Both the position numbers and the translations under genes were made by a program. Below, piece by piece: positions 18,690 through 44,165 of a stretch of DNA of 64,000 bases. The stretch spans positions 10,060,028 to 10,124,027 of the forward strand of contig OZ020519.1 in assembly GCA_963971425.1 (NCBI GenBank). The letters are read 5' to 3'. Under the pieces are notes generated by a model. The model saw only the letters and a list, made by a program, of their open reading frames with translations, was not told where the DNA came from and did no database searches. Numbering within the stretch: the first letter of the stretch is position 1; the number at the start of each line of letters is the position of its first letter. This DNA comes from Bryoerythrophyllum caledonicum (lineage: Eukaryota > Streptophyta > Bryopsida > Pottiales > Pottiaceae).

Positions 18690-21600
18690 TCACGTGACGA
18701 TGAGATTAACCATCCCTATCAGACTTCGAAGGGTCGTGAATTGCTCTTTCGGAAGTCCCTTGGTGAAAATATCAGCAAGCTGCGACTTCGTATGAATATA
18801 AGACACGTCAATTTCGCCAAGCTCAAATTTCTCACGAGAGAAGAAATACTTGCGCTCAATATGTTTTGTTCGCTTGTGAAATTTTGGGTTTTTAACAAGT
18901 CGAATTGCTGATTGGTTGTCGCATAATATCATAGTAGGTCAATCTTGGGATAAACCAAGACTATGAAGAAGTCATTGAAGCCATATGGCCTCTTTAGCAG
19001 CTTCAGCTAATGTCACGAATTCCGCTTTGGTTGTCGATTCAGAAACACACCCTTGTTTTTGTGAATACCAAGAGATTGGGCCGTTTGCCAGCTTAAAGAT
19101 GATGCCAGTTCGAGACTTGTGATCAGTTTGATCTCCACAGTAGTCAGCATCAACGTATCCCAGCACATTAAGATCTGGTGTTGAAGAGAAAACGATTCCA
19201 AAGGATATTGTACCTTTCAAATATCAGAATATTCTCTTAACTGCCATCCAGTGCGATTGTCTTGGATTCTTAGAAAACTGAGCACACTTCGTAACTGCAT
19301 AAGTGATGTCACATCGAGTAAGCACCATAGCATACATAAGGCAACCAATCGCTTGTTGATAGGGACCATGGAATATAAGATCTTCAGGTCCTGCTTGAGC
19401 AGAAAGGTCGATATGATAATCAGTAGGCGTGGAGACAGGGTTTGAATCCAACATCCCAAATCTGATCAGAATATCAATGATATATCGTGTCTGATGCAAA
19501 GTGATAGCCTTCGTATGAGGATCACGGTAGACTTCAAACCCGACATAATAATCCATAGCTCCTTTGACGACTTTGAAAAGTATTTCCAGATATTTTATAA
19601 CATCATTAAGACGTTTCATCTTGCCAGATGCTACAATCCCGTCATCGATGAAAATACCGATGAGAAGCATCATGGATTGATCGTGATAAACACATGAATC
19701 TGCTTCACTTGGAATAAGGTCATACGTCTTGAGAAAGGTGTCAAACTTGCGATTCCCCTGCCACTCACTCTGTTTAAGTCCATATAAACTCTTTTTGAGT
19801 CAGCATACCAAATTCTCAGAACCTGGATGTGTAAATCCTTCTGGTTGACTCATGAAGATTTCTTCCTCTATGTCTCCATTAAGAAAGGTTGTACCGATGT
19901 CAAACTGTAATAAATGCATGTTGCATGCAGCAGCAATTCCGAAAATCACGCGAATTGATGAGTGCTTTACCACAGGTGAAAAGGTTTCTGTAAAATCTAC
20001 ACCTCGTTTCTGTGAATAACCTTTCGCGACGAGTCTCGCTTTGAAACGATCCAATTCTCCAGTTCGTGTGTATTTCACTTTATACACCCATTTACAATGA
20101 ACCTTCTTCCTGTCAATTGGAAAAGGCACAAGTTCCCAGGTACAATTTTCTATCAAGGAATTGTATTATCGTTCCATGGCAATCTGCCAATCATGACGAT
20201 TGTCAGAAGAGATAGCTTGCTTGTAAGTCTGAGGTTCCATATAAATTTCCCCAGAATTAATCAGATAAGCTTGAGAACAACGTTGTTCTTCGTTAGGAAT
20301 AGAGGAATCCACTGTATGTTGTACCGAAGTACTGGTGTCACTATAAATATCGTTCATCGATCTGAAACGAGGAATAATTGGTTCACTTCTGGGAGAAGAT
20401 TCGGTTGGCACCTGTGAAACTCTCATGGGTGAGATAAACTCAACTGCATCTTGTACTTGAGTTGATTCACATAGCGCACCTTTTCCTGTATCTGTGTTGT
20501 TTTGATCCACTTCCACTGACGTGCTAGTTTCCATTCGCACATCAGCTCCCACTGATTCATCATTTTCCATTGATACATGAGCTCCCACTGCTCGAACTGT
20601 ATCAGAAGAGGAGGATGGGTTGTCATGACTAGTCGTATTACTGAAGGTATCAGGCTGACGAATAAAAGAATTACTCGTAATGAAAGTAGACGGTTCAAAC
20701 AGAACAAATTGCGACTTAATCTGCTCGTCCTCCAATTCACATTTGTCGCCTAGTTCATCGAAAATGACATCCAAACTTTCAACAATTTTGTTGACTGCTA
20801 CGTCCCAGAATCGCCAACCTTTACTTGTATGGCTGTAACCAACAAACCTGACAAGTTTACCGCGAGCGTCAAACTTGGTCCGCTGATGCTTCTCCAAGAA
20901 AATGTAGGCTGGTGATCCAAAAACTCGGTAATGATCCACTGATGGCTTCTGCTTGTACCATAGTTCGTATGGGATAAATCTACCTGTCTGTGTATTGATG
21001 GTTCTATTCAGGATATGTACTGCAGTATCGATGGCCTCAGCCCATAGAGTCATGGGAATATTCATTGCGAGCATCATGCTACGCGCTGCTTTACAGACTG
21101 TTCTGTTGTCCCGCTCAATATACCCATTCTGTTGAGTAGTACGAGGAGTACTAGTTTCACGTTTAATACCTTCGGAATCAAGGAGATTATCAAAAGCTAC
21201 ACTGCAGAACTCGCCTCCTCTATCAGATCTAAATCTGCGAACAGGATTTCCAGTGTCTCGATACACTATCTTCAAGGTTTTCCGAAATAAACCTATTACT
21301 TCTGATTTCTCTTGGAGAAAGTGTACAATCCTGAAGGAAGTAGCATCATCTTTGACCAGAAGATAATAGAATGATTTCCCTAAGGAAGGAATAGCAGTCT
21401 TTCCGGATAGATCGGCATGGAGGAAATCACCAGGGATATCAGACCGTTTCTTATCAGGTTTGGTCGTGTATGAGGATTTATGGTGTTTGGCCAAAACACA
21501 TCCCTCACAGAGATTCGGAAAATCATCATAGGTGGTTACAGGAAAACTCACCAGGGATTGAAATGATTGCATATTCTTCATAACTTGAAGATTAACATGC

Positions 21601-23105
21601 GCCATTCGCTTGTGCCAAATAAAAGAGTTCTTCAGCTGAGTCGTTGATGAAACGTTAAGCGTAGTAGATACTGGTGTATGGATCGGCAAAGAATCCTTAT
21701 TCAGATAAGGAGGAATGACTCTGATGTCAAGCAAAAATAGATGTCCATGTCTTGTTCCTTCGAGCACCTTAGTTCCTCTGCCTTGACCTCGTCTGAACTC
21801 ACATGTGTTGCCAACAGTCATGAATGAGAGACCCTTGTCAGTAGCAAGTCCAATAGAGAATAAATTCTGTTTCAGTTCAGGAACATAGAGTACGTTCTCG
21901 AGAATGCCTTCCTTTTCAACCCCATCAATGATACGGATAATTCGTATACTCCCTGTGCCTTGTATAGGCAGCTTTCGGTCATCCACAATAGTAACGCTCC
22001 ATGAAAGATTACCAGAAATAGGTGAGAAGGTTGAAAACCAGCTCCTATTATCCGTCATATGCTCTGTGGCTCCTGTGTCTCCAAACCATATGTCTGAACT
22101 ATCTGTGACAGAAAGGGCTTCAGAGTGTCGAGAAGTTGCCATGAAGGCGTATTCATTAGAAGAGCAATCGCTCTCTGAATATTCACTTTCTAAACCACTG
22201 TCGGAAGGACCTGCTGTAGTCAGATAAGCATCACTCTTCCGTGAAGAGTTCTGACTCTTATCCACATTGTCGTTGTAGCGCCTAGAAGATTGAGCATCCT
22301 CAGCCTTACGATCAATGAATTTCTTCGTCCCTCGATGTTCTTGACGCGGTTCAGTACAATCTCGTGACCAATGGTCACGGGCTCCACAATTATAGCAGAA
22401 TGTACGCTTCTTCAATTCCTTAAGGTAGGCTGCATCCCTTTCCTTAAGCTCTAGTCAAGACAGCTTCTTAGGTTTTGTCACTGCAGGCGTGAAATAAGCA
22501 GTCTCGGTGAGATTTTCTTTGTCCTGCTGCTTGAGAATGTGCTCATGCTGGAGAAGACGAGTCGTGATTGCTGATATGGTCCGATCCTGGGCTGGTACAT
22601 TAGCCCATGCTGCGACAATGTTGTTGTAGCTTGGCGGGAGACTCATCAATATTTTGGTGATGACCTGTGTAACAGAGAGAGGCTGGCCCAAATCTCTAAG
22701 AACACTCGCCATATGTTCAATGCGGTTAATATGCACCTTAATTGAATCATTCTTATTCATCTTGTAATCATAAAATTCAGCATGAATCATAAAAATGTTT
22801 TCAGCAGATTTGAACTGATGAAGGGAGCAGAGTTTAGACCACATATCAGCAGCAGTTGAGCAGGAAAGTAGGTCTTCCATCACTGTCGAAGATACAGCCT
22901 GCATGATAAGCATCCTTGCATGAACATTCTTCTTATTCCAAGCCGCGATAGACTCGACGAATGAACCCGTTGGAGGTCGTCGCTCGGTGCCATACACAAC
23001 CAGCGCCACCTCCTTGTACGCAAATAAAATCTCCATCGAGTGCTTCTAGACATTAAACTTCGTTCCGTCGAATACCTTCAACCCGGCCATCTCAGAGCGC
23101 TCCAT
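18690..23105 (-). pseudogene. Copia-1 gag-pol polyprotein, frame intact but with seven stops
   Basis: A single minus-strand frame runs the whole length. Gag (UBN2-type) comes first, then a zinc knuckle CYNCGARDHWSRDC near 22390, aspartic protease (FGDTGATEH), GAG-pre-integrase, integrase core (FLHADLSGK; FRSDRGGEF), reverse transcriptase (ARLVAKGYSQ; FIDDGIVAS in place of YVDD) and RNase H (YVDADYCGD; CDNQSAIRL; IDVSYIHTKSQLADIFTKG). Seven in-frame stops have plus-strand triplets at 23046, 22455, 20166, 19800, 19224, 18972 and 18939. No frameshift is seen. Each stop is explainable as TGG to TAG, CGA to TGA or CAA to TAA. The intact-frame yet stop-ridden state in a copy with about 99% identical LTRs suggests a defective parent mobilised in trans. 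Confidence 0.9.
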
Positions 23106-23905: not shown

Positions 23906-24061
23906 TGCGTTCCACATGATACCAAAATATAAAGTATAAATTGAACTGGAGTAGCTCAGAGCAAGCATTCGTTTAGCATTCATCTCCATCACATAGCTCA
24001 AAGTCTGGGTATCGAGTTGTTCAGTCCGACCTGAGGGTTGCAATTTTCAGTTTCAGTTAAC
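23906..24061 (+). promoter_or_regulatory. Promoter and 5' UTR of the disrupted coiled-coil gene
   Basis: Closely matches the region upstream of the intact paralogue (61290-61439): CACATGATACCAAA, GTATAAATTGAA, GTAGCTCAGAGCAA, CTCCATCACATAGCT and TTGTTCAGTCCGACCTG, in the same order. A TATAAA box lies at 23935-23940, about 125 bp before the ATG at 24062. Confidence 0.75.
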
Positions 24062-24077
24062 ATGGAGAAAGTTGACG
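24062..24077 (+). pseudogene. First codons of the disrupted coiled-coil gene, cut off by the MULE
   Basis: ATGGAGAAAGTTGACG is the start of the gene. The last ten bases are the MULE target site, repeated at 38738-38747. Removing the MULE joins it in frame to TTAACATGGAG, giving MEKVDVN before the family-typical MEIVDVRTEV. Confidence 0.75.
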
Positions 24078-24130
24078 GGGGAATGCTATTTTGTGAGCAG
24101 TGAGCGGTGAGCGGTGAGCAGTGAGCAGAA
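24078..24130. repeat. MULE left terminal inverted repeat with GTGAGCR heptamers
   Basis: GCTATTTTGTGAGCAG followed by GTGAGCG/AGTGAGC heptamer tandem copies. It pairs with 38685-38737 in inverted orientation. Confidence 0.9.
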
Positions 24131-24975
24131 ATAAAGGGGTTTAGAGCAAAAAAAAATTAGCTTTAAAATAAGTTTGTATGCTGAAGACATTTTTTTAGCT
24201 CACAAGAGGGTGTATGGCCGTGGATTATGTGGTGCTATAATGAGTATGATGGTTAAAATTAAAAGGATGACTTGTAGTTTCATAAAATATCCTATGGCCG
24301 TGGATGAAAGGCTTCGCATTCTCATTATTAGAGTAATCCACGATTTGGTGTGTTCGCATGATGTATAGTGTACTTGAACGTTGATTTAAAGAATTGGAAT
24401 TTTGGATCTAGAGTTTAGGGTTTACGAAATGAAGATTGTATCAATATTTTCTAGTTTTACTTAGCCCTACAAAAACTACGTCTTCATGGTTATCTATGCA
24501 CATTTATAATAAGATTTTCAATAGATTTTTAGTATTGAAAAAGTCATGTATCCATTAGCTCATTATAAAACAAAATCGCGGATTTTACATCAAATGTATT
24601 TTTGTATGTATGGTTTACGATACAAACAATATAGTGTACGTCGTTCAGTGTACATTTTATAATCCGACCTTGCCTTGAATATGCTACTAAATTCTAATGC
24701 ATTACTCAATGACAAACTAGTTGACTAATCTATCTGACAGTTTCTGATACAGTTCCAAATTGCCATAAGTTTAAACATGTGATTCGTGGAATTCCATTAT
24801 TCCATGTCTAGATAGTTTAGAAGATGGTAGCAAAATAATAGGCATGTTTCAATTTAAACTCGAATGGGTACAATTAGAATCACTACAAGAAGAGTATTTA
24901 GTTTGGATTGGCTTTAGTTGGAATGGCAAATAAGATCTTACTGAAGGAGAAATTGCCAATGAGTATACAAAGCAA
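24131..24975. other. MULE left subterminal region, non-coding
   Basis: AT-rich, with no coding pattern. It lies just downstream of the stop of the minus-strand gene and probably contains its 3' UTR. Confidence 0.5.
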
Positions 24976-27900
24976 CTACTCCGTGTCCTCTGAACTACCC
25001 TCGCTTCCATTACCAACCTCTGCCTCTACCTCCACATAACGGAGTACATCTTTGTGATACCTCTGCCACTGACGTGTTGGTGGAGGAGATTTCATAGTTG
25101 ATTGTATCTCCGCAGTTCTCTTTGCCCAGATAGGTAAAGAGATGGTAGAATCTGGAGATGACAATAGCGGTAGAGCTCTGCAAAGAAACAGAGCAACAAT
25201 GAGGTGCAAAGTTGATAATGATAACGTACAACTTTTTTGAAAACAACAAAAAAATCTTGAACTTGGGTTGAAGTTACGTACAAGAAGGAATACGACTATT
25301 TTTTTGCTTCTTCTGTGTTGGTTCCCCTTGAGTACGTCGCAAGTTCTTCCTCCTCTCCCCTACCAATTCTGTAGCTGAGTTTGGAATTAGCGGTGCGAGC
25401 AATGACTGGAAAATCTCTGAGTCTTCTTCGAAGGCCAATACATGGAGGCCCAGTGATTGACACACCCGAATAGTTGGACCTAGGTAGTACATATCAATAG
25501 AGAAGAAAAATTAGAAGTGAATAACAAAAATAAATTAGTTTACGGCATATATAAAGGAATGCTTACCTGTAGAGGCATTCCAATCTAAGACAATATCTCC
25601 ACTTTTTGTGAGGGATTCAAGAATGGTCTTCATAAGATCAACCGCTTTCTCACAAGCCCCTCGCCATGGTGAGTCGCCGTGCCTAAGCTGTGAAGCAACG
25701 TTCACAGGATTGAACAAGATGTCGAGCTCAACAAGTGGAGAGCGAACTGAGAATTTCGAGACGATGGGAGCGTCACGAACAAATAGCTGAACACAGAATC
25801 TTGTCCCCTGCGAAAGAAACAATATATATAATTATGGATTAGATACACCAAAAAGAAGCTTAAGACTAAAGCTAATAATTATAAAAAAATGGTTTAGAGT
25901 ACTTACTGTCGCAGAGGCATCTCGAGGCAAAGCTAAAGGCAACTCGTTCAATGCCCACCAATCGATGAGTAGCTTGAAGTCGTATGTAGAAGCACATTCA
26001 TCAATTTCAAGTTGTAGATCTCTATCATTTGGATGAAGCAGAAGCAAAGCAGCGTTGTCATGAAGATAAGTGTCAGCAAACTTGAAAATAGTATCCATAT
26101 AATTATCTGGCCTCGAATTCCACAAAGGAATGGCATCAATAGATTGAGAGATCCCAGGTACTGGTAAATTCTCTGGAATGTCAGCCACAATTAGATCCAA
26201 TCCACTGTGTTTGTAAGTGTCATTCGAAACTTTCCGCGTTCTACCTGCATCAACCTGCAAGCAAAAAATCCAATGGGTGTAAACAAATGCGGTTCAGTAT
26301 AATGGAAGGAATGCTATAACCAAATATAGATAACAAAGACTAACCTTTGAAATGAATTGATGTAGCTGCTCCCATAGTTGGGGTGGGCCTCCTGCCTTCG
26401 AGAGAGACTGCATGACAGAGGAGAGTGATATATTTTTGATGAAACACTCTGATGAGACAACTAGCAACGGAGCAACGAAAGATTCAGAAAATTGAAATTG
26501 TCGTTGCTTGCGTTGTTGGACTTCCATATTTGTAACTTCAACTAGGCTTGAACCAGCGCTTGAGAGGATGCGACGACTGGAGGAGAGTTCCATGCCAAGA
26601 CCTCGTTCGTAGTCATTCCTCTTGGATCAGGCATGAAGAAAAGATTTAAGGTGTCTCTCTCAGCAAGGGCGGCTGCAACTGCAGCTTCAATGTCAGCCTT
26701 CTTCGCAGCCTCCGCATCTCTGATGAGCTTTTCCTTGTCAGCTTTCGAAAGCTGCTTCTTCTTACCGGAGGTCTCCTCTTGAATTAACACTGGTGGAGAT
26801 GAAGACTGCTCTACAATTTCAAACTCCGGCTCTCCTAATGGAGATGATACATGCAGTACTGAAACCTCTGTAAGACCTTGAAATAGCTCCTTCTCCGCAT
26901 CCGGAACAAAATTGGCGGAGCATTCCAAGTACCATCCACCACCATGTAAAACTTGAGTGGAATACCTCTTCTTCTGAACCTCTGTGAAGATGCACAAGTC
27001 TGATGAAGGCAGAATCCAAGTTGAAAGAAATGAAGGACATAGTGGTTGCTGAAGCGCATTTTTTGGTATCAACTCCCTTACAATGTATCTGTAGAAATTA
27101 ATTTTAAGTAAATTAAACCACTTAAAATCTAAATATATGTGAAATAAAATAAAAGAGTGTAGAATACAAGAGATGAACCTATATAGAAGCCGTTTAATGG
27201 CGAGGTCAGCTCCGGGCAACTCATCGAACTTTGTATTCTTCTGAAATGGTGGTTTCAAACTCGAATGCACAATCACCATGAATGCCTTTTTCCATAATAT
27301 CATGCGCCATTTTTCCACATACTCAGAGGGCTTTTCGATAGCAGACGAAGCGTTCCAATTCACTGAAATTGTGCCCGTTGCACAAATTTCGTCAAAATGG
27401 GCGATGAACTTGTCCTCCAACTGGTATCATAAATTCCAAAAGTCAGACCTCCTACTTACTACTCAAGATAAAAAGACTTCAAGTAACATGAAAATATATT
27501 CAATATGTACCTGAGCCCAAAATGTTGCACGATTGAGGAAGGAATTAAGAGCCCCATCTTTAAACTACGTCGTTGGAAAGCAGAATGCTGACCGAACCAT
27601 TGAAGGAGAGTTCCAGAAATGCAACCACCTAGCTTTGAAACGAGGCTCCACCGCTGCGGTTGCCACTTTTTGTAACTTCTCGATGGTCATTTCTGTCTTC
27701 TTGAAGTGGCTGAAATGGAAATTAATCTGCATAAAATCCAAAAATAAAAATCAAATAACTATAGAATGAAGTAAACGATTGATAGGTTTACGAAATAAAA
27801 GAATTGACAACACACAACAATACAACACACAATAGCATAGAAACTCTACCTCATCAAAGAAGTCCTCGCCATTCTTGGGATTGGCGACTGTAAGGTATTT

Positions 27901-29739
27901 CTGAAAGTCTTTGCTCTTGATTGACTTCACGGTGTTCGCTGCAGCATCGCTCATGACCCTCCACACTCCTTCTGTACTTCTATCCTCCAGCATGGTCTTC
28001 TTCTCATAATCAATTGCGGCCTCATCAGATGCGCGTGCAATATCTTGCTGCAATCATAACAAAATTAGTTAGTTTAAAAAAAAAACTAAAAATTGGTTTC
28101 AATGCTCGTAAATATGAATGTGTATGAAGTGCCATCAATACCCGATATAAGAACGATATAAAAACATCAACCATTAACAAAAACCATGCTGCACGGGACT
28201 GCCGCACTTTCAAGCACGTCTTGAATTCCTCCGACATCAAAAGATCTTTGAAATCTTCCAACCTAAGCCCACCATAATACCGAATGCGTTGAAGTTTTGC
28301 TGGAAGACTGGTCTTAACAAAATCGTTCTGGATAGATCTGTAAAATCATTCGTATTGATTTAGATATTTAAAGACTCCAATGTCATAAAAGATGTCAAAT
28401 TATACATGGCTTAAAGGATAAATGTTAGAGAATTTACCAATTCACATCGTGCATGCAATTGAGTAGCACCGATATCCGTCCGGTCGGGTTCAGTACAATG
28501 CATTGAACATCATAATGCCAATGAGGGTCTCCGCAATGTTGTTCTGAAATAAAACGCCACCACGCCTTATACCTGTGATTTCCGTCCCAGACAAAAAACA
28601 TTTTGCCACTAAATGCAGAAAACTCTGGATTAGACTTCAACATCTCTTCAAATTTCTCATTTGCTGCAATCCAATGTGCATCCCACGTTGACATGATCTG
28701 AGGGTTAACATCGCATGTTAGCTCTTGATCATCATAGATAGAGATATAGAATGCACGATCTCCATCAATATAGCCTCCCTCAAAGCGTTTCTGCAAAGCA
28801 CAGACATCAATTTCTTGAATTGGCCGCACTCGAGGTAAGGCGATCATCCTGCAAAGGGGCACGTGAAATGGAGCCTTCGTAACGCGCATGCTCTCTAGGA
28901 CTGTCACAAAATTGGACTTCTGATGAAGTTGTCTAGCTCTTTCGCCCTCAAGCGAACTTATCAATCCATCCGGGCACTTTGGTGATGAATCCTCAGAGCC
29001 GGTCGTGGGAACGTTCTGCAATACGTGAATCAAATTAGTTCGGAGATATATAACAAAGGGAGATAAAATGCATGCATGAGAATCTAAACGAGGCAAACCT
29101 GAATATCTGGGCCGTCAACTAGATCCTCGCCGTCTGGAGAGAATTCTTGTTCTTCCTAATTCAAGCAAATACTATAGAATTTAAAAAAAAAGATTGTGTG
29201 GGTTAGAAATCTCTGTTTCAAATTGAAGGGTTGGACCTGAACAAAAAGCCTCTGAAAATTTCACTGAAATAGAGTAGGTTTAAAGCATTGAAAGGAATAC
29301 CTCATCATTTGGTGCTGAAGGTAATGGTGGTGAACTTTCCACCATGTCGTCCCGTGTGTTTTTCTACAAAATGAAATATAAGTAAATGAAACCAATTAGA
29401 ACAATTCCTGACAAAACTCAAGCAAATGCCGGATCTCTTAAACGCTACGTTGAGAGGCCTCGCCTAAGAAGCCTGAAGATATTTGCAAAATCCGGTACTA
29501 CAAGTAGCCGAGTATCTGACAGAAATATACATCGAATCCGATCGAACAAGCTGTTCTGGCTAAAATGGGCAAAATCATATGAACAAGAATGAATGAACAT
29601 GAATGTACAACTATGAACAAGCTGCAATCGCGAAGAAATATGAGCATCCCTAAAACCAAAGTATGATCATGACTCAACTGTGACTCGTAATGAGCTAGAC
29701 CACATAATAGGTGAAGAAAGTATGAAGCACTTAAATGCA

Positions 29740-30600
29740 GCCGAGGGAGGCCTCGCATACAAGGCCTCGTGAATTTCCTGGAACATGGTCCTACACTGCC
29801 GAGAGATGATCGATATCGGGACTAACCTATCAGGCCTCGTATACGAGGCCTTCCTAAACCGACACAAATTTGGTCATTCCTAACCACACTTTCCTCGTCT
29901 AGATGGGACTGCTCCACTCACGATCAACATAAGCACAACGACCTCGGAACTGACCTACAAGGCCTCGTATACGAGGCCTTCCTAAAAAACACAAACCCGG
30001 CCCTTCACAACCACACTTTCGTCATCTAGATGGGACTGCGGCACTCACGATCAACATATTAAGCACAAGGACCTTGGAACTGACCTACGAGGCCTCGTAT
30101 ACGAGGCCTTCCTAAAAAAACACAAACCCGGCCCTTCGCAACCACACTTTCGTCGTCTAGATGGGACTGCGGCACTCACGATCAACATAAGCACAAGGAC
30201 CTCGGAACTGACCTAGGAGGCCTCGTATACGAGGCCTTCCTAAAAAAACACAAACCCGGCCCTTCGCAACCACACTTTCGTCGTCTCGATGGGACTGCGG
30301 CACTCACGATCAACATAAGCACAAGGACCTCGGAACTGACCTAGGAGGCCTCGTATACGAGGCCTTCCTAAAAAAACACAAACTCGGCCCTTCACAACCA
30401 CACTTTCATCGTTTCGATGGGACTGCGGCACTCACGATCAACATAAGCACAAGGACCTCGGAACTGACCTACGAGGCCTCGTATACGAGGCCTTCCTAAA
30501 AAATCACAGACCCGGCCCTTCACAACCACACTTTCGTCGTCTAGATTAAAGACTGCTGCACTCACGATCAACATAAGCACAAGGTCCTCGGGACTTGTTC
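29740..30600. repeat. About 128-bp tandem satellite with a perfect 18-bp palindrome per unit
   Basis: GGCCTCGTATACGAGGCC is perfectly palindromic and occurs at 29833, 29961, 30091, 30219, 30347 and 30474, spaced 127-130 bp. Flanking unit sequence (GACTGCGGCACTCACGATCA, CACAAGGACCTCGGAACTG) is also conserved. Degenerate copies lie at 29747, 30717 and 31243. The array occupies intron 3 of the MULE accessory gene. Confidence 0.9.
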
Positions 30601-31882
30601 TAATCAAATCATAAGCTTCCGAACTTCATATGCCTCACATCGTAGGACCTACCTCAAATTATATGCTTCAGAACTAATTAGAGACCATGCACACAGTCCA
30701 AGTGGCTGCCAAGAGAGGCCTCGCATACGAGGCCTGAATTTTTCACTCAAATCCGGTACTTCATGAATGCGAAACTACACTGATCGGAACTGCCAAACGG
30801 GAAAAAACAGTTGCACATGAACTAAAAACATGCCGAGCAAAGACGTGTAGGACCTACATGCCTTGAATCATATGCTTCCAAACCTAATTCGATATCATGC
30901 ACACGATCCCAGTATACGAGGCCTGCAGGTTTCGACACTAATCATATGCTGAAATTAAAACGTTGACACAAAAACTGACAAAGATACAGTGGGAGGACAT
31001 TGGCGACCTACACTGCCACGATACAAATGCGAGGCCTGCAGGAGTTAACTAGAATTAGGTTCTACATGACTCATTAATCATATGCTCACTGGAAGTCGTG
31101 ACTTTCTGTACGAGACTGCCTTACTGCCCTACTGCCTTACTGCCTGAATAAGGCGAACCGACTGACGACGAGACACCAATATTTCCCGGCCTGCCCTCTC
31201 TGCTCTCTCAATCGATGTACAGAACAAAGGGAATTGATTTGGGTGGCCTCGTATACGAGGGCTGTTTTGACTCGTCGAAAGCGGTCCTAAGTTCCTGCAC
31301 AGATTTGTCTTATACTCTAGGTTCTCTCACACTCGATACATCTCAATCTGAGTTCTCTTATATTCTTGGTACTCTCACACTGAACTATCTCCTCACTGAA
31401 ATTAACAAGTTTAATGGCGGTTCTAAGTTACTTGATCTAAGATCAACGTTGGACAATTTTCAATATACCATCTTCAAAAACTTCACAGTAAACCCTAATC
31501 GAACACAAATTTTAACTCTCAAAGTACATTCAAGCGGAGAAGCCTCGCTCTGAACACTCACAGTAAGCGACATCAAGAGAACACTGAAAACGAAATCGAC
31601 ACTCCATCGATGCCGCAAACCCTACACCCATTTTAGTCTTAATTGAATCATGTCAACATACCTCAATGCTTGTTGTTGGTGAGGTCGTTCCTGCCATCTC
31701 CTTGCTCCCAGGTTCAGATCCCTGCCACACCCACAGTAAGCGTAAGTCAGTGCACAAGAAACTTCAATGATAGCTTTGTGTCCTAAGAAATGCTATGTCG
31801 CTGAGAGTTCAGGTGGCGCAGGTCTGTGTGCTAGCGAAATGTAAATGAAAATCTTGCTCGGATAACCTCTGCTGGATCGGTA

Positions 31883-32517
31883 CACCAATAATGTTCATTA
31901 GTGTTCGCAACACTATTTACGAACGTAAACGCTAAATGTCAATTACCCTACAAATGTAACTACATTATATGTCAATTTAAACACTAATTCCCAATTTCTC
32001 TAACTTTTGCCCTTGTTACATTTTAACATATTGACATTTAGTGTTGGTTATGTAACAATTCATTGCAAGTCACCCAAATCTTGCCACATGCCAAATGATG
32101 ATTTCGGGGGCAATTTTTGTCCAATTTGAGATTTTTCTGTGCCTATCTGAACTGATTTGAAAAGACGCTTCCAATGGCACCTTACCCATCTTCAAATTCG
32201 TCTTAAATAAAAAGTTATAGCGAATATTTTTGGGCAGATTTCTTGAGTTTTGGTTGAAAGTTTGAGGAGGCATATCTTTATCAGTTTCGCACCAATTCTA
32301 TCGAGTGAGGTGACTAGCTTATGTGTTTTTTCAAGGAGATTCCATCGGTATATGGTACATCTTCAAATTCGTTGTGATGCAAAAGTTATGAGCAATTTTG
32401 TTAGGCAGATTTTTTTGACATTGAACACTAAATGTAAACAAATAGACATTTAGTGAAGGTCAGGTCATAGGGGTAGTTACACTATTGGTGCCATAACACT
32501 AATGAACATTATTGGTG
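31883..32517. mobile_element. 635-bp TIR element of the TACACYAA family, TSD TA
   Basis: Left end CACCAATAATGTTCATTAGT pairs with right end ACTAATGAACATTATTGGTG, with TA on both sides (31881-31882 and 32518-32519). No ORF. It sits inside intron 2 of the MULE accessory gene. The TA duplication suggests a Tc1/mariner-related or similar MITE. Confidence 0.8.
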
Positions 32518-33579
32518 TAGGGTTTTGATACTCGACGAGATATTGTTCGATTATTTAGTCATCTACTGGTTTTCATCCTAATATTCATTCCAGTATGTGA
32601 CCGCCAAACCATGTGTTAAACTCGGCACTTGTAAATTGGAACAAAAAATATACTATAGCATGATGCATTTGAAACATAATAAATAGCCAACACCTATTGC
32701 ATCATGTTCACAATCTTTCAGGCATAAAGAACCGATTCTCTCAAAAGATAGTTTCCGAACAATGCATCAATAATTTAGAACAATCTACTTCTACAAGCAT
32801 AAATCTCAAAGATGATATTCAATACTTAGGACCTTGAAACAGTATGCTCATTAAATGTTTCTTTCACAAAAACCACTTGCTTCTTTATGATAGCTGATTT
32901 TGAACTTGTGACACACTAACTTGGTGGTGACAAGTAAAAATAATAAATGCTTTCTTCATTACCAAACTTCAGGTAATTGATGAACTGATATTAGGGCAAT
33001 GTTTTATTATCAACAATTGAGAATTGTAACTGCATATTTCTGTCACAAAGTTGCAACGCCTACCTCTCTTCTCGAAGGGGTTGATTGTGGAGATGTTGAA
33101 GTCCGCGGTATGTTGTTACAATGTCCTCCACTTTTTCTAGCTACTTCTGCCTGACAAAGCCACATCAACATCAGAAATAGTTTAATTAACAAAGTTATAG
33201 AATTTGGGCTTCACAAAGTGTATACTAAGTTGGCATGATACATAGTTGATGCAATACTGAGAGCCAACTTTTGTGCACACATGCAATAGGTCCTTCATGC
33301 AAATCTCAGCGACAAAGCACTTACCATCATCGGAGACGACGACTCGCCTTCATTGTCTTCAATGTTCGGAAGTTCGCAATCACTATCACGCTTGGAAGAG
33401 TTAAATGACAACACCTTTGCTGTTTCAGATACGTCTACCTGACCAATACATGCCTTGCGCTTTCCCATCCTAGATCTCTGCAGTTGCTTACGGCTCGAAA
33501 AGAGAATACCTCTCCTCCTTCGTTTCTTCTTCCTCTCACTCACTTGAACAAGGCACTCGTTGCTACAAATCCTAGACAT

Positions 33580-34287
33580 TTGAGAAATGCCAAAGCTCTT
33601 AGACTATACGACTTAACAAAATCGGTAATGATTCATTTGAAGATGATGCTCATTAAAATCAACCAAAATCCAATAACGACACCACAATTCATTAATTTAA
33701 TCCCCATAGCAACTATATTGCAATAAGTATTTCTAGAAATTGCTAATCGTAGCTACCAATCTGTCATCCACTGGAATTTACCTCATTTTTGCTTCGCATT
33801 CACTACTATAATGAATAACATAACCTCTATGAGTTGTTTATACCTATATTAGATCCGTTACAACTACTAAGTACACAATGAGAACAAAATTTGGAGTGCA
33901 ATATGTTAACCTCTTCTACTTAATTATAACATGAGTGCGTTTTTGAATTTACTATTGTTCGCCTTCTCCACGTTACATTGCACTAAAAATTCATCACTTA
34001 GTTCTATTTCAAATTGGTATTGCCTCCATCATGAGTTTAGGTATATCCTGGACATAATTCATGTCCACAATGCCACCATTTTGAAATTTGTCTGTTTCCG
34101 TAAACTATTTGTTCTACATTTCGCTTATACCGGATCTAGACTTGCCTTCGTTATCAATTTATCGTTATCATGCTTTTTATCCAAAATCTGCCAGTCTGAA
34201 ATCCCTAGTTGTTTTAGAGTATATATCAAATTACATCTCTTACTCTAAACCTCTCATTCCATTGTATTGCTTCTCAAGTTCTTTGTA
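33580..34287. promoter_or_regulatory. Divergent intergenic region between the two MULE genes
   Basis: About 700 bp of AT-rich sequence between the start of the accessory gene (33579, minus) and the transposase ATG (34288, plus). By position it must carry both promoters. No individual element is claimed. Confidence 0.5.
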
Positions 34288-37200
34288 ATGGCCTCTGTTG
34301 ATTTAGGTAGTGTAGGTACCGTTGTGATACATGGTCAGGGCGAAGAAATCCCAATTACATTCCGTGTAGCATATGATGGTCATTGCTCAGTTGCAGCAAG
34401 TAGACTTTCTTCCAGGTTTCAGTTGTTGGAGGATTCTGTTTATGTTGATGAAGAAGTACGTGACCCAGAGTCTGGTGTTATCACTCACACCTTAGGTCAG
34501 GATGCCATCAATTCCGACGAAGGAAAATCCTGGCTACTCAAGCGTGGAACATTTAGAGTGTACGGTGTTAGACGAACTACTGACAGTTTTTCCAACCAAA
34601 TTTTGGGATCTCGAGTTTCTATAACTAGCGATCTGCAAACGAGCGTCCCTCGCAAAGTCAAAGTTGAGCCAGGTTGTGAAATTATTCACATTTTGAGTGA
34701 TGACTCGGATACGGACACCCCAATTCTCGTTGATAAAGAGAAACCAGATAGTTATCCATCTCTTGTACATTTAGATTCATCGATTTGTCAATCCTCTCAT
34801 GACAGTCGACCCGTTTGTGTGAAACCTCCTCTTCCACCATCAAAATCACCTTCGCCATCTATAGTAGAATGTATTCGGAAACTAGGTGCCAGAAAGGGGT
34901 CAAAGTCTATATTATCCAGAGTTGATTTTTCAGAGGTCCCGATTTCTACTGTGGATCGCTTGCCTTCAAGCTTTGATGGAGATGTCATTTTTGTTCTGCC
35001 TCCACCTTCACTGTTGTCTTCGCAGTCACAAGCCAAGCTACTGCATGGCATGGACAAGCGTCATGATGGTCATGCCTGGACTCGTATAGTCACAACCCAC
35101 ATTATGAATGACTTCGGTCTTTCTTTTAGAATGTCCTCATGCCTAGGTCACTTGAAGTGCGTCAATGACCAATGTAACTACCTTGATAGAGTTCATAGAC
35201 CTACTCCAACCAATGAGACAGAGTGGGATGGAGCATCGAACTTAACATTTGTCCCTCATTCCAAACCTCCAAAAGGCTCTACTGTTGTTTGCAAAGTTTG
35301 TCAGACTCCTCCTTCATGTTTAAACGTCTGCTCTGCCAAGATCTACTATGTCTTAAGTCCCCCTCCGATGTCTCGTGCTTGTATTCATATTGGTATTCAC
35401 TCACATCCCGTAAAGATTGGTGTTGACAGAGAAGCTGAGGAACAATTGACAACCCTCCTCGGCGAGCAAGTTGAGAGAACTCCGTCTGCTACAACATCTG
35501 CTATAGTGTTGGAGGCCGGAAAGGAATTTGTTGCGGAATTGTTGCTGAATCCAGAAGGTGCCTCTGAACAGAGTCTGTCGAAGGAGGAATTGGTGCATGT
35601 TCTTGAGAGGAGCAAGAACTTAACATCTCCAAATCTGCGAAACAAGGTCTCATCCTTCCGTTATCTGAGACGCTACGGAGTCATGGACAGCATAACAAAG
35701 CTTAGAGGATCGAGCAAATGGGCGTATTTGCAAAACAACATGTTTCCTGGACAAGGAGGAGCGTCTGACAAGGTATTTGTTTTTAAAATGTTTGAAGTTG
35801 GACCCGGCAGTGGTGTCGATCTTGTTATGAGGATGCAAACTGGTGGAGATTTACACAATGCTTGGATGATGTTTGACCATGTCAAGCGTGTGAAGGGTTG
35901 GACCACAATGGCTTGTCATATCTACGATGCTTCCTATTGTCGTGTCATGACAATAGCAGTTTGTGACATGCAATCTGAGGACGTTCAGGCCCAAGTTGTA
36001 TTTTGGAAAAACTTGAATGCCGTTGTAGGACAACATGGCATTTCCGAGCCCAATTTCCAGGGATTTATGACGGACAGTGCCCAAGCTAATTGGAATGCGG
36101 TGAGGATCATTTACGGTTCTGGCGATGCAAAGACTCGAATGGACGACCGGGAACGAACATGCTTATTCCACTGGACGCAATCTCTTGAAAAGCACACGAA
36201 GGCGGATATTCGACCCGATCTGCAAGAGCAACATCGTCGTCTATGTAAGCAATACAAGAATGCAAATTCTCTGGAAGACGCGCAGCCTAAATACTTTGCC
36301 ATCAGATCTTGGTGGTTATCATCAGGCGCTACAACCGAGGAAGGCCTTGTTTGTCTAGACCTATGGCTTGCTTTTTGGCACTTTCGATACCGCCAATGGG
36401 GTGGATTTATGGAGCTTGTAAGTGTATATTTATCTTCTATGTGAACTTCCATTTTACTTATAGATTAATTTATCTTCTTGCTTATAATTTGATGTTCTAT
36501 CTTACTTATAATTTGATGTCATTTAGTCTCTAATAGCTTGCTACATGTGGCAGAATCTCAGTGTAGAAGAACTTGTGGAAATGCCCTCTTGTAACCTTGC
36601 CGAGACAGTGCACAACAAATGGCTCCAACAATCGGGAAAGAGGGGAAATTATTTATATGTAGCGATAGTGGACGACTACGTTAGAGCATTCACGCAAGTA
36701 CTTGCATACTATCAGTTCTCCAAAGGCGACAGAGCAGGCACGGGCCCAAGTAGAGACGATCTTCGTGTGCGCCTTGCCCAACGCAATGCCAAGACTACAG
36801 GAGATTCAAAGAAACTCCATGCGGCCTTAGAGGTAATGCCAGGTGCTTCAGAAATTTGTACGAGAGAGCCCCATTTTGAAGGTGAAGAGGTCTTCATATC
36901 CTTGAAACGTAGGACAGACATCCCCATTGGATCAGAGTATGACTCTCATCGCCCAGACAAGATCAGCATGTCTCGGCCGGCAAAGAAAGTATGCTGCGAT
37001 GGAGGCAGTTCTGTTGGTCATACACGTGAGTGTGAGTCCGAACCTGTAGCAGAGATTCCCCGAGCTGAAGAGACGACAACGGCCACACCAATTCCGCAAC
37101 ATACGAAGGTGGTCCTTGAGACAACTTGTAATGAGAAGGAGTGGCACATAGCGCGGCTTCCTCGGACTTCAGCAAAAGCTTGCTTTGCACAGCAAGCCAT

Positions 37201-37999
37201 AACAAAGAAAATATGCGTTGCCAAGATTGTTCAATGCAACAAGTCTACAGCAGCGCCTACTTACACGGGAATGATGACCCATTACAAGAAGAACAAGGTG
37301 GAGCTAATGCAGTTTTTCTTTTGCAACGACGATATTGAACGTTGTGTGAAGGGCACAAGGCGCAAGTGGATTGTGGCTAAACCACATGTGCCCGAGGTAT
37401 GGCCTGTCAAGCTTGGTACGAACCTTACTCGACAAGAAGTCTATGCTCTAGAGCATGCCGGATTTCGATTGGCAGAATGCCCTATACTAGCGCCACATGA
37501 ATTGTTCGGTGATTTTACCGGACTTATCAATTTTGAGGATTATCCAGCACCAGTTTCCCCTAACGATTACCCGAAGCGCAGGTTCGGGAAGAACATTCGA
37601 CGCAACTCCAAGGCTCCATCTCTGAAACACTCCAACAGCTATGTGTCCGCCCTTTCAGTTAACGGTAAAGTTCAAAAGGTCACCATGCTTCCTTCTCCAG
37701 GATTGGGTTCAATTATTACATTTGAATCTGTCCAAGGCTCCAAGGCATCGTCATATCTAATCAGTATTGGACAATTTCCGAGTCGCGATTGTCCATTTTT
37801 CAAAGATATGGAAATGAAGTCCCTAGGGAAGCGTGGGCAATGGGTAAATTGCAAACATATGTACTATATTTTTACTCAAATATGTCATCTTCTTCCTGAG
37901 GTAGATCAATTTATCCATGCACCGAGTTTTAGCTACAATGAAATCAAGCGCGTGTTGGAAGTTCTTCTACCCAAGTGCCCCCCTGTTGTAACGGTTTGA
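34288..37999 (+). CDS. MULE transposase-like protein with WRKY/GCM1-like zinc finger, two exons
   Basis: Exon 1 is 34288-36417 and exon 2 is 36554-37999, with a 136-bp GT-AG intron (GTAAGT donor, GTGGCAG acceptor). The splice preserves frame and gives 1,191 codons without stops. The start is the first ATG in frame (MASVDLG). Visible zinc ligands: C285, C291, C296 and the HIGIHSH group (H371, H373). This recalls the WRKY-GCM1 fold of many MULE-type transposases. The catalytic region includes YDASYCRVMTIAVCD (D547) and FMTDSAQANWNAV (D596), typical of the MULE DDE fold. A NLAETVHNKWL segment follows in exon 2. The C-terminal third is basic and unassigned. It is probably the enzyme that moves this 14.66-kb element. 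Family placement rests on motifs and on the element's 10-bp target duplication. Confidence 0.75.
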
Positions 38000-38684
38000 C
38001 ATACGGATATACTGTATTTGTCATTGCATATTCAATTGAAACACTGGTGTGACTAAAAGGGCCACCAATACATATTGCAATATGTACTTCTTCTATAGTT
38101 TCAGCTTACCATGGTTACTTCTTCTACACGTTCATCTTACCATTGTATGGAATCTTATAACAGATTATCTAGGATGCTAGGCCTTTTGGGTACACTATAA
38201 TTTTCTCTTATCGCTCTTTGATTACCATACTTGACTCCAGAAATAGTCCCTAAATCTTAATATGAGGCTCACCCTAAACCCGAATAAAATCCTTTGTGAA
38301 TTTTTATTCCTTGCATTTCAGTTCAAAATGAAAGTAATGAGTATGAAAGTGAAGAAGATATCACTTTGAAACAATTCGTGTCAAGATATTCTGATGTTAT
38401 TAATAGTCTTTACTAAATGAATAAATGCATATTTTGAACATTTTCAATTCAAAACGTCACAAAAAAAGGGTTTTCAAATCATACGAAAATCCTCCTCTCC
38501 TTCTGAATGTAAAAATACAGTTACAAAAAAATCCATATCCACGGTTATAGGGTAATACGTTTTTCACATTAAAAGATCAAACAAGTTTGCAAATAGTACA
38601 TAATGTTTTTATTTATAGTCATTTCAAAAAAATCATACCAATATGATTAAGTTCTCAATAAATTTCTACCTGAATCCAATATTT
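38000..38684. other. MULE right subterminal region, non-coding
   Basis: AT-rich 3' flank of the transposase gene, without recognised features before the right TIR. Confidence 0.5.
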
Positions 38685-38737
38685 ATCTGCTCACCGCTCA
38701 CCGCTCACCGCTTTCTGCTCACAAAATAGCTTCGCTC
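38685..38737. repeat. MULE right terminal inverted repeat
   Basis: GCTCACC heptamer copies, then CTGCTCACAAAATAGC. It is the inverted counterpart of 24078-24130. Confidence 0.9.
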
Positions 38738-38747
38738 AAAGTTGACG

Positions 38748-39326
38748 TTAACATGGAGATAGTTGACGTACGCACTGAGGTGAATGACAATGGGGTATTG
38801 GTTGTGCACAGTGGGAAAAGTCGCCAGGAATATGAAATGACGAAGAAACCTGCGCCTACCTCGTACCTTGTCGAGTGTCAGATGGCGGATATCTTGAACG
38901 GCCTTGGCTTGGAGGATGCGCTCATCCAACTGAGTCGTGCATTGGATCTTTTACACTTGGCTTACATGGGCGTCGCTGGGACTGGCAAGTTGGCGGGCTG
39001 GATTGGGCAGCGCGAGAGGGAGTTGGCCCAACTGTGTGTAAAATGTGATCAGACCATGAGTGCTCTACAGAAGGGCAGCGGCGCTGTGCTGGAGGTTCTG
39101 ATGGAGGGGTACGGAGAGCTCCTGATGGCGAGAGAGGTTGATGCATTGGAAATTCTTTCTGACTGTTCTAAGGAGGCGCGCGAGATGGCGGCCAAGTGTG
39201 AGGAGCTGGCGTCAGGATTTGGAAAGCTGAGGGAGGACACCGACGCCGACATAGTGGCTGTTGATGAAGCCGTGGGCGTTCAAGCGGAGACGCTGAAGAA
39301 GCTTGCGGAGGATTACAGGAAGAATG
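38748..39326 (+). pseudogene. Disrupted coiled-coil gene, N-terminal half
   Basis: From ATG 38753 it encodes MEIVDVRTEV and about 190 further residues, colinear with residues 1-192 of the intact paralogue at 61440. It continues from the start fragment at 24062 if the MULE is removed. It contains MTKKPAPTSYLVE, GVAGTGKLAGWIG and AAKCEELASGFGK. Copia-2 cuts it after codons KN at GAATG (39322-39326). Function unknown; see 61440-63269. Confidence 0.8.
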
Positions 39327-39674
39327 TGTTACTTTCTACTCGTCTGTATCACTTAATGATCATACACTACGTGAGACACTTAAAAGAACACACTCTGTAT
39401 TCTAACACACTTAATACACAAGTGCTTCTTCGAGCTCTCTTTATTCTTAACTTCTACAATATGGAACTATCCATGGTCTCCAAGCTAGACAACAACTGCT
39501 ACAATCTGCTACCACGAGCTCTCAGTGCACATTTTGTGCCTACATTTCAAAAGACTAACTACAGCTAAAAAATAGACAGACAGATAAGGGGAAACAAAGA
39601 TCGTCAAACCCTAAACTAACAGAAAACATCCAACAACGGATGAAAAAGGCTGATGAACGGAAAAGACTGCAACA
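39327..39674 (-). repeat. Copia-2 3' LTR
   Basis: 348 bp. The polypurine tract GAGTGGGAG (minus strand) is immediately inside it at about 39675-39683. Confidence 0.95.
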
Positions 39675-39779: not shown

Positions 39780-42700
39780 TTAGAGAAGAGCTGTCATACC
39801 AATTTGTTCAAGGAGAAGGAAGAATTGCACCTTAGGAAGGCCCTTCGTAAACAAATCAACGATCTGTGACTTCGTGTTGATGTAAACAACATCGATCTCC
39901 CCTTGCTCGTACTTCTCTCTGGAGAAATAATACTTTCTTTCGATATGCTTCGTACGTTTGTGAAATTCAGGGTTTTTTACCAGGCGGATTGCTGATTGAT
40001 TATCACAAAAAATCACCGACCTGGTATCTTGAGGAAGTCCAATACTTTTGAGTAATCTTCTCAGCCAGATTGCTTCTTTTGTAGCCTCTGCCAGAGCTAC
40101 GAATTCGGCTTCCGTTGTGGAATCGGCTGTGCATCCCTGTTTCCGCGAGAACCATGAGATAGGACCATGCGCGAGTTTGAAAACGGCACCAGTTCGTGAC
40201 TTCCTATCACTTACGTCGTTACTATAGTCTGCATCGACATAGCCGTTAAGCTTGAGGTCTGATGATGTGCCATAAAAGGTGATTCCATGAGAGAGTGTGC
40301 CTCGAATAAACCGAAAATTACGCTTCACGGCTGCCCAATGAGAGAGTCTCGGTTTAGATGAGTACTGGGCACATCGTGTCACTGCGAATGTGATATCAAA
40401 CCTTCTAAGCACCATAGCATACATCAAACACCCTATTGCCTGCTGATAGGGCCCTTCGAATGCATGATCTTCATTGCTTGAGACTTCACAAAGTATAGTT
40501 TGTAAATCAGCTGGCGTAGACACAGGGTGACAATTCAACATATTGAAACGAAGTAGAACATCGCTGAGGTAACGTGTCTGGTGAAGCGAAATAGCATGCG
40601 TCTCTAGATCCTGATGGACTTGAAATCCAACATAGTAGTCAAGATCTCCCTTGACGATCTTGAAAATAGTCTCTAAATGCTTAATGACAGCATTGAGTCT
40701 GTGAGAATCAGTAGACGCAGCAATTCCATTGTCTATGAAAATGCCAAGGATGAGAGTCATAGTGGCATCATGATACACACACGGATCCGCTTCACTAGGA
40801 ATGAGGTTGTGCGTCTTCAGGAATGTATCAAACTTGATGTTCCATTGCCGCGCGCTTTGTTTTAGACCATATAAGCTTTTCCGAAGCTTACAAACTAGTT
40901 TCTCGCATCCGTTGATGACGAAACCCTCTCGTTGACACATGTATATATCCTCATGGAGGTCTCCATTAAAAAATGTTGTCCCAATACGAAACTGTAGAAG
41001 CTCCATCTTGAGTGCAGCGGCAATAGCAAAAATAACACGAATTGACTAATATTTCACTACTGGTGAAAACGTTTCGGTGTAGTCAATCCCTGCTTTCTGC
41101 GAATAACCCTTGGCGACGACTCGAGCTTTGAAACGATCAATTTCTCCCGAGGTTTTATATTTAATTTAAAAAACCCACTTGCACTGCACTTTCTTTCTCC
41201 CAGCAGGCAAGGACACCAAATCCCAGGTTCGATTGTCAATAAGAGAGTCAAATTCAATCTGCATTGCATTTAACCAATCTGCTGAGTGATTTGACGAGAC
41301 AGCTTCCTTACAGGCCTGCGGCTCCATCAAGGTTTCACCGATATTGATTAAATAGGCATGTGAATCATGTACAGCTTGATCGACGGAAGAGTCCTGAATA
41401 CGATGAGATGAGTCATCATACAAATCTGAGAGAGATCTAAAACGAGGTCGCAGTGGCTCACTTGTAGTTGGAGAGCTTGTCTCTGTGAGAGAACAGGGTG
41501 TAGATCCACTAGATGAGGTTGGTAAACAGTCTCCCACTGCAATTGGTAAAGGATTTGCATCTAAAGAGACACTCAACGGTGTTGGCTGATCAGTGTCGGA
41601 AACAAGATCTTGATGGGTAGAAATACTAGACTGAGAATTTGCCAAAAGAGGCAAGTCGAATAGAATGTATTGAGAGGGAGGGAAAATACTTGGATTCTGA
41701 TATTTTCCATTGACCTCATCAAAAAGAACATCGGAGCTCTCAATAATCTTGTTTTCCTTGTCGTCCCAAAAACGCCACCCTTTGCTTGGTGCGCTATATC
41801 CCATGAAACGCACTGGTTTGCCACGAGGTTGACACTTCTGACGAAATTTTTTGTCAGTAAAGACATAAGCCAAAGACCCGAAAATCATGTAGTAAGCTAT
41901 CAAGGGCTTGTGTCCATGCCAGAGCTCGTATGGGGTGCATTGGCCTGTTTGCGTATTGATAGTCCTGTTGAGAAGATATACAGCCGTATGAATTGCTTGT
42001 GCCCACAGGAAACTTGGTATGTTCATAGCTGTTAGCATACTTCGAGCAGCTTCACAGATTGTCCTATTGTCGCGCTCAATGTACCCATTCTGCTGAGGTG
42101 TATGCGGTGTACTAGTGTCACGTCTGATTCCATTTTGATCAAGAAAATCGTCAAAAGCTTTGTTGCAGAATTCAGTTCCTCTGTCGGAGCAAAAATGGCG
42201 TACCGGATTTCCAGTATCACGAAGCACTATACGCACCACCTTTTTGAAAAATGAAAATGCTTCATTTTTTGTCTGAGCAAAGTGAATGAAGCGGTAGGAG
42301 GTAGCATCATCCTTCACAAGGATGTAATAAGAAGAATTACCAAGGGAATTGATTGGATTCTTCCCTAAGACATCAGCATGTAGAAGTTCACCTGGTATTT
42401 GAGATCGTTGTTTTTCCGGATCATGTCTGTAGGGCGCCTTATGCTGTTTGCCTAAAGCACAGCCTTCACAGATCGATGATAAGTTTCCTAAACGAGATTG
42501 AGGAGAATCAAGAACTGAGCCAGTTTCAAACATCTTCTACATTGTAGCAGGATTGATGTGCCCCATTTGCTGATGCCATAAGGATGTATCATTCAGTGTG
42601 ACCTCAGTAGTTGCAACTGACGAAGTGGCAATACTCACTGCAGATACTGGTGAAATTACTTGGAAAGATAATATGAAGACTTTCGCCTGTCTTATTCCTT

Positions 42701-44165
42701 GCATAATTGTTAGTCCTTTGCCATTACTGAGACGAAATTTGCATGTGTTTCCACATGACGTGAATGACAGCCCTTTCTCAATTGCAAGTCCAACAGAGAA
42801 AATATTTCTCTTAAGTTGTGGTATATAAAGGACGTTTTCCAGATATCCTTTTCTCCCACTACCATCAATATGGCAGAGAATTCTTATGGTGCCAGTGCCA
42901 AGCATAGGTAGTTTTCAATTATCAGCCACCGAGACAAACCAAGATCCCTCGGGTATAGCTTGGAAAGTAGAAAACCACGAAAGTTGTTTGGTCATGTGTT
43001 CTATTGCGCCGGTATCTCCGTACCACAAGTCTGAAGGTAATTCACCAATGACTGAGAGTGCTTCAGAATTCATTGAGATGACCGTAAAAGCGTAGTCATC
43101 ACAAGATGAGGCATTACTCTGGTTTGCTCCTGAATCAACACTATCATGATCAGAATGAACAGTATTAACGGCACATACAATACTCTGGTGGAATGGTCGG
43201 TTCCCCCTATCAGGATGTTGATAATAAGAATTGTGTCGAGAGGATGTATGCGGAGAGTGATGGGAACTACTTCCATGAGCATCATGATGACCTCTATGGT
43301 CATCACTAGTATCACGATGACCTCCATGGTGATCACTGGTATCACGATGACTCCCACGGTGATCACTGGTATTACGATGACCTCCATGATAATCATAGGT
43401 AGGACGCTTCGGTAATGTACAATCTCAAAACCAATGATCGTCTCCTCCACAATTGTAATAGACAGTGCGAGCCTAAAGTTCCTTGAGGTAGCTAGCATCT
43501 TGGTCACGTTTCGCTATTTTCGCCATCTTCTTTGTTACTGGTTGTGCACGGGTGAAGTAGGCAGTAGCCGTTGAGTTCTCCTTGTCCTGTTTTTTCAGGA
43601 TGTGCTCCTGTTGTAGCAATCGCGTTGTTATAGCAGAAATAGTTTGTTGCTCGAAAGGTAGATTCGCCCAAGTAGCAACAATAGAGTTATACCCCGGTGG
43701 CAAGCTCATCAAGATTTTCGTGACCATCTGAGTATCACTCAAGGGTTCACCTAGATCTCTTAGGATACTTGCCTTATGGATAATGGCATTAATGTGGTTC
43801 TCGATCGAATCACTCTTCGCCATCTTATAATCGTAAAACTCAGCATGGATAATATAAATATTTTCTGCTGATTTTTGCCGGTGAAGCAATCTTAGTCTCT
43901 CCCACATTTCAGCAGCAGTAGTACACGTGATAAGATCTTCCATGACTGAGGAGTTTAAGGCTTGTATAAGAGGCATCTGTGCAAGGGCATTTCTATCTTC
44001 CCACGCTGAAATCTCCTCATGGGCAGAATCAGGAGCAGGTTTCTTCATACCATCAACAATCCTTGTCAACTTCTTGTAGGCGAACAGAATGTCCATAGTA
44101 CATTTCCATACATTGAACTTCAACCCATCAAATACTTTGATCCCTGCCATTTCTGTCTTCTCCAT
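39780..44165 (-). pseudogene. Copia-2 gag-pol polyprotein, degenerate
   Basis: Gag starts at MEKTEMAGIKVFDG (44165) and is open to 43473. Then come a broken zinc knuckle (YYNCGGDDHW), a low-complexity His/Asp/Arg-rich stretch encoded by about 18-bp repeats (43255-43400), protease (YGDTGA), integrase (LLHADVLGK; FCSDRGTEF; 41166-42533), and reverse transcriptase through RNase H (39780-41006, FIDNGIAAS in place of YVDD, CDNQSAIRL). The main frame is kept throughout but broken by several stops. Unlike in Copia-1, some appear to require transversions. It is related to Copia-1 at protein level but is a different family by LTR sequence. Confidence 0.85.

Follow-up and report, generated by a model that had tools for sequence, protein, structure and literature searches.

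Within a 64,000-nucleotide stretch of the Bryoerythrophyllum caledonicum genome (contig OZ020519.1, positions 10,060,028 to 10,124,027; hereafter the window), positions 24078-38737 hold a Mutator-like element (MULE) that carries two divergent genes, one for a transposase and a second, minus-strand gene, here called gene 2. Comparison with other copies in the 437-Mb assembly (894 contigs) reveals that gene 2 is a fixed and selected part of the element, and that its third intron contains an array of a 20-bp palindrome. The interpretation we favor, to which we assign roughly an even chance (about 0.5), is that these elements form an autonomous two-gene family in which gene 2 encodes a sequence-specific accessory DNA-binding protein that targets its own family, much as VANC does for VANDAL elements.

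The analyses cover the window element and 10 fetched copies (c1 to c10) with a close transposase (90-100%), a set that leaves out the copies at C4:20676034 and the split C11:1077872/1084060. They also cover four members (b1 to b4) of a sister subfamily whose transposase is 79% alike, taken from 26 copies listed at 79-80%. The ends and the transposase gene of the window element are as follows.

24068..24077, no strand: target duplication of 10 bp, left copy, AAAGTTGACG
24078..24142, plus strand: left terminal inverted repeat, first letters GGGGAATGCTATTTTGTGAGCAG, with the same end in c1, c4 and c6
34288..36417, plus strand: transposase exon 1, with a GCM1-like zinc finger (about residues 258-378) and D530 and D596 of the DDE core
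36554..37999, plus strand: transposase exon 2, with candidate catalytic E727 in NLAETVHN and a C-terminal SWIM-like region
38673..38737, minus strand: right terminal inverted repeat
38738..38747, no strand: right copy of the target duplication, an exact match to the left copy

The inverted arms at 24085-24142 and 38673-38730 span 58 nt and are 84% complementary, and the element is flanked on both sides by an exact copy of the duplication. Three other copies (c1, c4 and c6) are complete at both ends, share the ends of the window element and have 10-bp duplications of their own, exact in c4 and c6 and with one mismatch in c1. A 10-bp duplication is therefore present in all four copies that are complete at both ends (exact in three), which fits the MULE range of 9-11 bp. 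Because these other full copies have the same ends and their own duplications, a chance arrangement was ruled out, and positions 24078-38737 are a real MULE. The boundaries and target duplication proposed in an earlier note, made from the sequence alone, were thus confirmed. Its additional argument, that removal of the element restores a reading frame, carries little weight: the open reading frame (ORF) downstream, at 38753-39568, contains an ATG of its own, and the insertion target is a tandem repeat of 21 bp. The two units of this repeat (24057-24077 and 38748-38768) differ at one position and lie near the start of that ORF.

The two transposase exons of the window encode 1,191 amino acids without an internal stop, which bears out the intact transposase described earlier; c1 has one internal stop and c4 has three. 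In an alignment with 58 related database proteins, D530 and D596 are kept in 59 of 59 rows and C625 and H628 in 58, giving a DDE core with C-x2-H, which we take to be the MULE catalytic pattern. The candidate E727 was picked by eye against the sequences P0001 and L001. Ten columns with the Cys/His ligands of a GCM1-type finger are kept in 57-59 of the 59 rows. A structure model of exon 1 (pLDDT 78.4, pTM 0.44) returned the GCM domain 1odh as its top PDB match in Foldseek (probability 0.99, E 0.01), with the P element and Mos1 transposases further down the same list (E 0.13); none of the 1236 matches reached E≤0.001. A Pfam search with the spliced transposase found no family at E≤10, and so no MULE profile. 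The ends, the duplication length and the catalytic pattern, rather than a profile match, are what place the element among MULEs. A related transposase (L001, 45% alike, in two ORFs) lies on a 4.1-kb contig filed under the cyanobacterial metagenome-assembled genome AVDCRST_MAG81, which is probably eukaryotic contamination.

Gene 2 and the features within it were mapped as listed here.

24974..33579, minus strand: gene 2, 15 exons, broken in the window copy
33579-33325, 33150-33064, 31721-31662, 29363-29301, 29155-29099, 29015-28438, 28337-28142 and 28047-27850, minus strand: gene 2 exons 1-8
27726-27511, 27420-27179, 27088-26345, 26254-25907, 25807-25567, 25479-25278 and 25177-24974, minus strand: gene 2 exons 9-15
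28438..29015, minus strand: exon 6, a ParB-like stretch with an invariant KMFxxWDGNHR in a 9-sequence alignment; 8 database relatives match at 60-77%
29749..31262, no strand: palindrome array (AGGCCTCGTATACGAGGCCT) within intron 3 of gene 2, some of it built of 128-bp tandem units
25278..26254, minus strand: permuted N6_N4 methyltransferase-like module in exons 12-14, with motif IV ADIPEN and the motif I region GDIVLDWNASTG

Two lines of evidence establish gene 2 as a fixed part of the element. First, the best 40 of 1319 transposase candidates and the best 40 of 127 first-look exon-6 candidates in the genome form, among the matches listed, 23 pairs lying no more than 20 kb apart, compared with a chance expectation of 0.15 pairs. 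All 23 are divergent, and they take in 22 of the 40 listed exon-6 matches and 23 of the 40 listed transposase matches. Second, the ratio of nonsynonymous to synonymous substitution rates (dN/dS, Nei-Gojobori, pairs sharing more than 300 codons, a limit that excludes c7-c9 for gene 2) averages 0.34 over 28 gene 2 pairs and 0.35 over 55 transposase pairs. The gene 2 values are 0.20-0.35 in 24 pairs and 0.67-0.73 in four close pairs; across subfamilies, gene 2 has ratios of 0.17 and 0.15, and the transposase has 0.13. Purifying selection is thus of similar strength on the two genes, from which we infer that the element depends on gene 2 for its success about as much as on the transposase.

At least 8 of the 15 exons, whole or in part, were recovered in 9 of the 11 close copies, and gene 2 is present in all four sister copies examined, although that of b3 (L040) is only 37-46% alike. 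All 15 exons are present in c1, c2 and c4 and 14 in c6; c3 and c10 have exons 1-11 and c5 has exons 1-8, the last exon being partial in each. The c10 match runs to the end of the fetched stretch. Because the c3 and c5 matches stop with 3.8-3.9 kb of their stretches remaining, gene 2 is cut or interrupted in these copies. In c8, exons 1-3 are followed by a long insert and then by sequence running from exon 6 through the last part of the gene. Only exons 1-2 were found in the 18 kb examined for c7, and c9 (L026/L027) holds a deeply diverged and degraded gene 2 (25-44% amino acid identity) beside a 90% transposase. The other copies therefore do not consistently lack the minus-strand gene, the outcome that the earlier note had named as counting against its reading. 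The pairing of a familiar transposase with a strongly diverged gene 2 in c9 and b3 suggests an exchange of halves near the divergent promoter.

The 15 minus-strand exons can be read directly from the sequence, in line with the roughly 15-exon divergent gene proposed earlier, and predict a protein of about 1,225 amino acids. In c1 the frame is open in all 15 exons. The c4 gene is also open, although part of its exon 2 is locally out of frame, and the conserved exon 6/7 junction was read by eye. In contrast, three lesions break the window copy: one stop codon where exons 6 and 7 join, another within exon 9, and a frameshift in exon 11. A different donor site for exon 6 seemed to bypass the first of these stops, but it was rejected, as relatives support the other donor. 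Intron 2 of the window gene contains a nested element at 31881-32519 with 25-bp perfect inverted ends (TACACCAATAATGTTCATTAGTGTT); c8 aligns straight across this site without the nested element, with a 6-bp overlap.

The palindrome array in intron 3 is a feature that the earlier note did not report. In the window, the 20-bp sequence occurs six times exactly, and its 18-bp core GGCCTCGTATACGAGGCC occurs nine times with up to two mismatches. Intron 3 was scanned in nine close copies; near-copies number 6-10 in eight of them and two in c8. No palindrome sites were found in c7 and c9. Genome-wide (437 Mb), the exact 20-mer occurs at 23 sites and the reversed control at none. Nineteen of these sites adjoin gene 2, 18 of them in fetched copies and one 0.6 kb from an exon-6 match on C2, and four are elsewhere (C3:13759699, C7:8553879, C14:21771721 and C15:3783291). 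The sister copies b1, b2 and b4 have six, four and three sites, respectively, of a B form (GGCCTCGTGCACGAGGTC, up to two mismatches), which has a different centre and is still nearly palindromic.

These observations are consistent with a model in which the gene 2 protein comprises a ParB-like part and a part derived from a methyltransferase, the latter probably no longer catalytic. By analogy with known systems, this protein may read the palindromes arrayed in an intron of the element itself and would thereby act on its own family. Because catalysis looks altered (see below) and the array is internal, anti-silencing would be the likeliest output, with the protein keeping the element expressed as VANC does for VANDAL.

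Several points weigh against this interpretation. The reader of the palindrome may instead be the transposase or a host factor. The ParB/Srx-like motif noted earlier is conserved: DGNHR (within WDGNHR) is kept in 9 of 9 aligned exon 6 sequences and also in c9 and b1-b4; however, a ParB fold was found by no profile, PDB or phage search with gene 2 or exon 6, and the exon 6 structure model is poor (pLDDT 39.7). The putative ParB assignment draws on this motif, of the DGxHR type that we take to be a ParB/Srx mark, and on a published parallel. With respect to the array, b3, whose gene 2 is diverged, has neither site form, and the two forms overlap: b2 has two A-form sites (the form of the window palindrome), and c1, c2, c5 and c6 each have one or two sites within two mismatches of B. 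The exact A palindrome on C2 adjoins an exon-6 match of only 82%. In favor of the interpretation, core identity between sites is 85-92% in five copies, versus 22-74% in 10-nt flank blocks, falling with distance, yet the compared sites were chosen by up to three mismatches, which inflates core identity. The array units also arose in part by 128-bp tandem duplication. Finally, for 17 of the 40 listed transposase matches, c7, c9 and b3 among them, the exon-6 list contains no partner; the partners of unpaired matches may fall beyond the best-40 lists, or there may be none.

A bolder extension would be that a MULE lineage turned a ParB-methylase into a noncatalytic reader of its own palindromic 'address' array, placed in the reader's own intron. 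The two would then vary in step from one subfamily to the next, and as a module they could be swapped while the transposase stays conserved. We regard this extension as doubtful, and we lowered our estimate of it slightly because the site forms overlap between subfamilies.

An unlikely alternative to self-targeting is that gene 2 encodes a transposition cofactor like mudrB, which is apparently needed for integration, with the array being unrelated or serving the transposase. The linkage and selection described above would fit any helper, and second ORFs are reported for maize and yeast MULEs in the portion of PMC6446971 consulted. However, the array lies inside gene 2 and not at the ends of the element. 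Transposases are expected to bind element ends. In addition, the prevailing site form differs by gene 2 lineage (A in the A copies, B in b1, b2 and b4, neither in b3), with exceptions.

Less probable still is self-marking, in which gene 2 would be an active N6-adenine or N4-cytosine methyltransferase acting on the DNA of the element itself, although the same idea appears for an Ectocarpus protein in passages of PMC12477816. The N6_N4_Mtase profile (PF01555) matches the window read-through near residues 1060-1120 at 29.6 bits, above the gathering cutoff of 26.7, whereas c4 scores 25.8, just below it. Three PHROG DNA-methyltransferase families match gene 2 (E 4e-5 to 3e-4), and a profile comparison with phage methylases gave 96% probability over 68 columns. 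A tblastn search of the module against phages yielded 161 records at E up to 10; in 12 of the 20 listed, the alignment spans at least 80% of the query, and all 12 are annotated as methylase or methyltransferase, each match being weak (best E 0.03). In a PDB search with the module, the methylase DpnA (E 0.014) ranked below a designed helical protein (E 0.0056), so this search adds little; with a 4-row profile DpnA came first (E 0.008). The full-length gene 2 protein found nothing at E≤0.01 among 8000 scored, and no relatives were confirmed in viral contigs.

The motif order, IV then I, is that of the permuted type. The usual catalytic motif IV is [DNS]PP[YFW], a form found in none of the 11 copies read. 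Instead, ADIPEN or ADIPES occurs in 10 of them, including the diverged b3, with E in place of the aromatic residue, and the degraded c9 has ANVKDG. Among four aligned phage enzymes, two have ADIPYN, one residue away from ADIPEN, and one has DLPY. The constancy of ADIPE across 10 of 11 copies, b3 included, shows that the motif is under constraint, and without its aromatic residue ordinary catalysis is doubtful. The permuted N6A/N4C methyltransferase-like module of the earlier note is thus recognizable, its motif I part matching significantly, whereas an active enzyme is unsupported because motif IV lacks the usual form.

Similarly improbable is the proposal that the array is a neutral minisatellite, palindromic by accident. 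Clear 128-bp tandem units in the window and a site number that varies among copies, down to two in c8, are as this would predict. Nevertheless, at sites outside the 128-bp units the palindrome is better preserved than the flanking sequence, and the sister subfamily keeps near-palindromy with a different centre. Lastly, gene capture is common in MULEs, according to the portion of PMC6446971 consulted, but passive carriage of a captured host gene (a Pack-MULE) was rejected as very improbable given the low dN/dS, the 23 of 23 divergent listed pairs, the 127 first-look candidates genome-wide, and the same gene, side and orientation in two subfamilies.

Other transposon sequences surround the element. 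Pieces of a Copia-type retrotransposon flank it at 20166-23036 and 39780-44165 (minus strand), with gag and integrase on both sides and RVT_2 on the right. An open ORF at 51911-53083 (plus strand, 390 amino acids) matches DDE_Tnp_4 (E 5.7e-27), a transposase of another kind. An ORF at 57353-58441 (minus strand, 362 amino acids) has a sub-threshold match to PF03440 (E 9e-5, 22.8 bits, cutoff 25) and weaker coiled-coil-like matches.

Two-gene MULEs are known from MuDR/mudrB and Mutyl/mutB, which resemble the element in having two genes in one MULE (PMC6446971, in part). Our search of open-licence papers found no MULE with a ParB-methyltransferase gene, and the earlier statement that no plant MULE with this cargo has been described stands to that extent. 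Neither mudrB nor mutB is known to us to have a ParB or methylase part. However, the pairing itself is published: in the passages of PMC12477816 concerned, Sola1-1_Ec32 of Ectocarpus carries a ParB-methyltransferase gene (1104 amino acids) on the strand opposite its transposase, the same pairing is mentioned for transposons of green and red algae, and it is proposed that such proteins bind and modify the DNA of their own element. Like gene 2, that gene combines ParB-like and N4C/N6A methyltransferase-like parts within a large DNA transposon, a likeness at the level of their descriptions. The present carrier differs in being a MULE with a GCM1-like finger, an altered motif IV and a palindrome array in an intron. 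These features, together with selection on the gene pair, we did not find in print. A bacterial protein, Bce_0392, has a ParB domain fused to an adenine methylase, with nicking shown for the ParB domain (PMC5512222, in part); gene 2 is instead eukaryotic and intron-split, with an altered motif IV and a putative ParB part.

The same passages of PMC12477816 name no binding site for such proteins, and the MULE family described here offers a candidate site, subfamilies with different prevailing site forms and an open gene 2 copy. The altered motif IV is a hint that ordinary catalysis is dispensable. The closest functional parallel is VANDAL/Hiun, also a MULE with an accessory gene. According to the sections of PMC5735166 consulted, VANC binds a short motif in tandem repeats and causes elements of its own family to lose DNA methylation; the motifs are located upstream of VANA as well as in introns of VANC and VANB, and they differ between related elements. 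Tandem-repeat motifs in an intron of the accessory gene, differing between related elements, are thus common to both systems. The VANC motif is YAGTATTAY, as opposed to a 20-bp palindrome here, and VANC has DUF1985/DUF287, neither of which was found in gene 2 by Pfam at E≤10 (for DUF1985, with the window and c4 proteins). If our interpretation is correct, VANC-type self-targeting extends to an unrelated protein.

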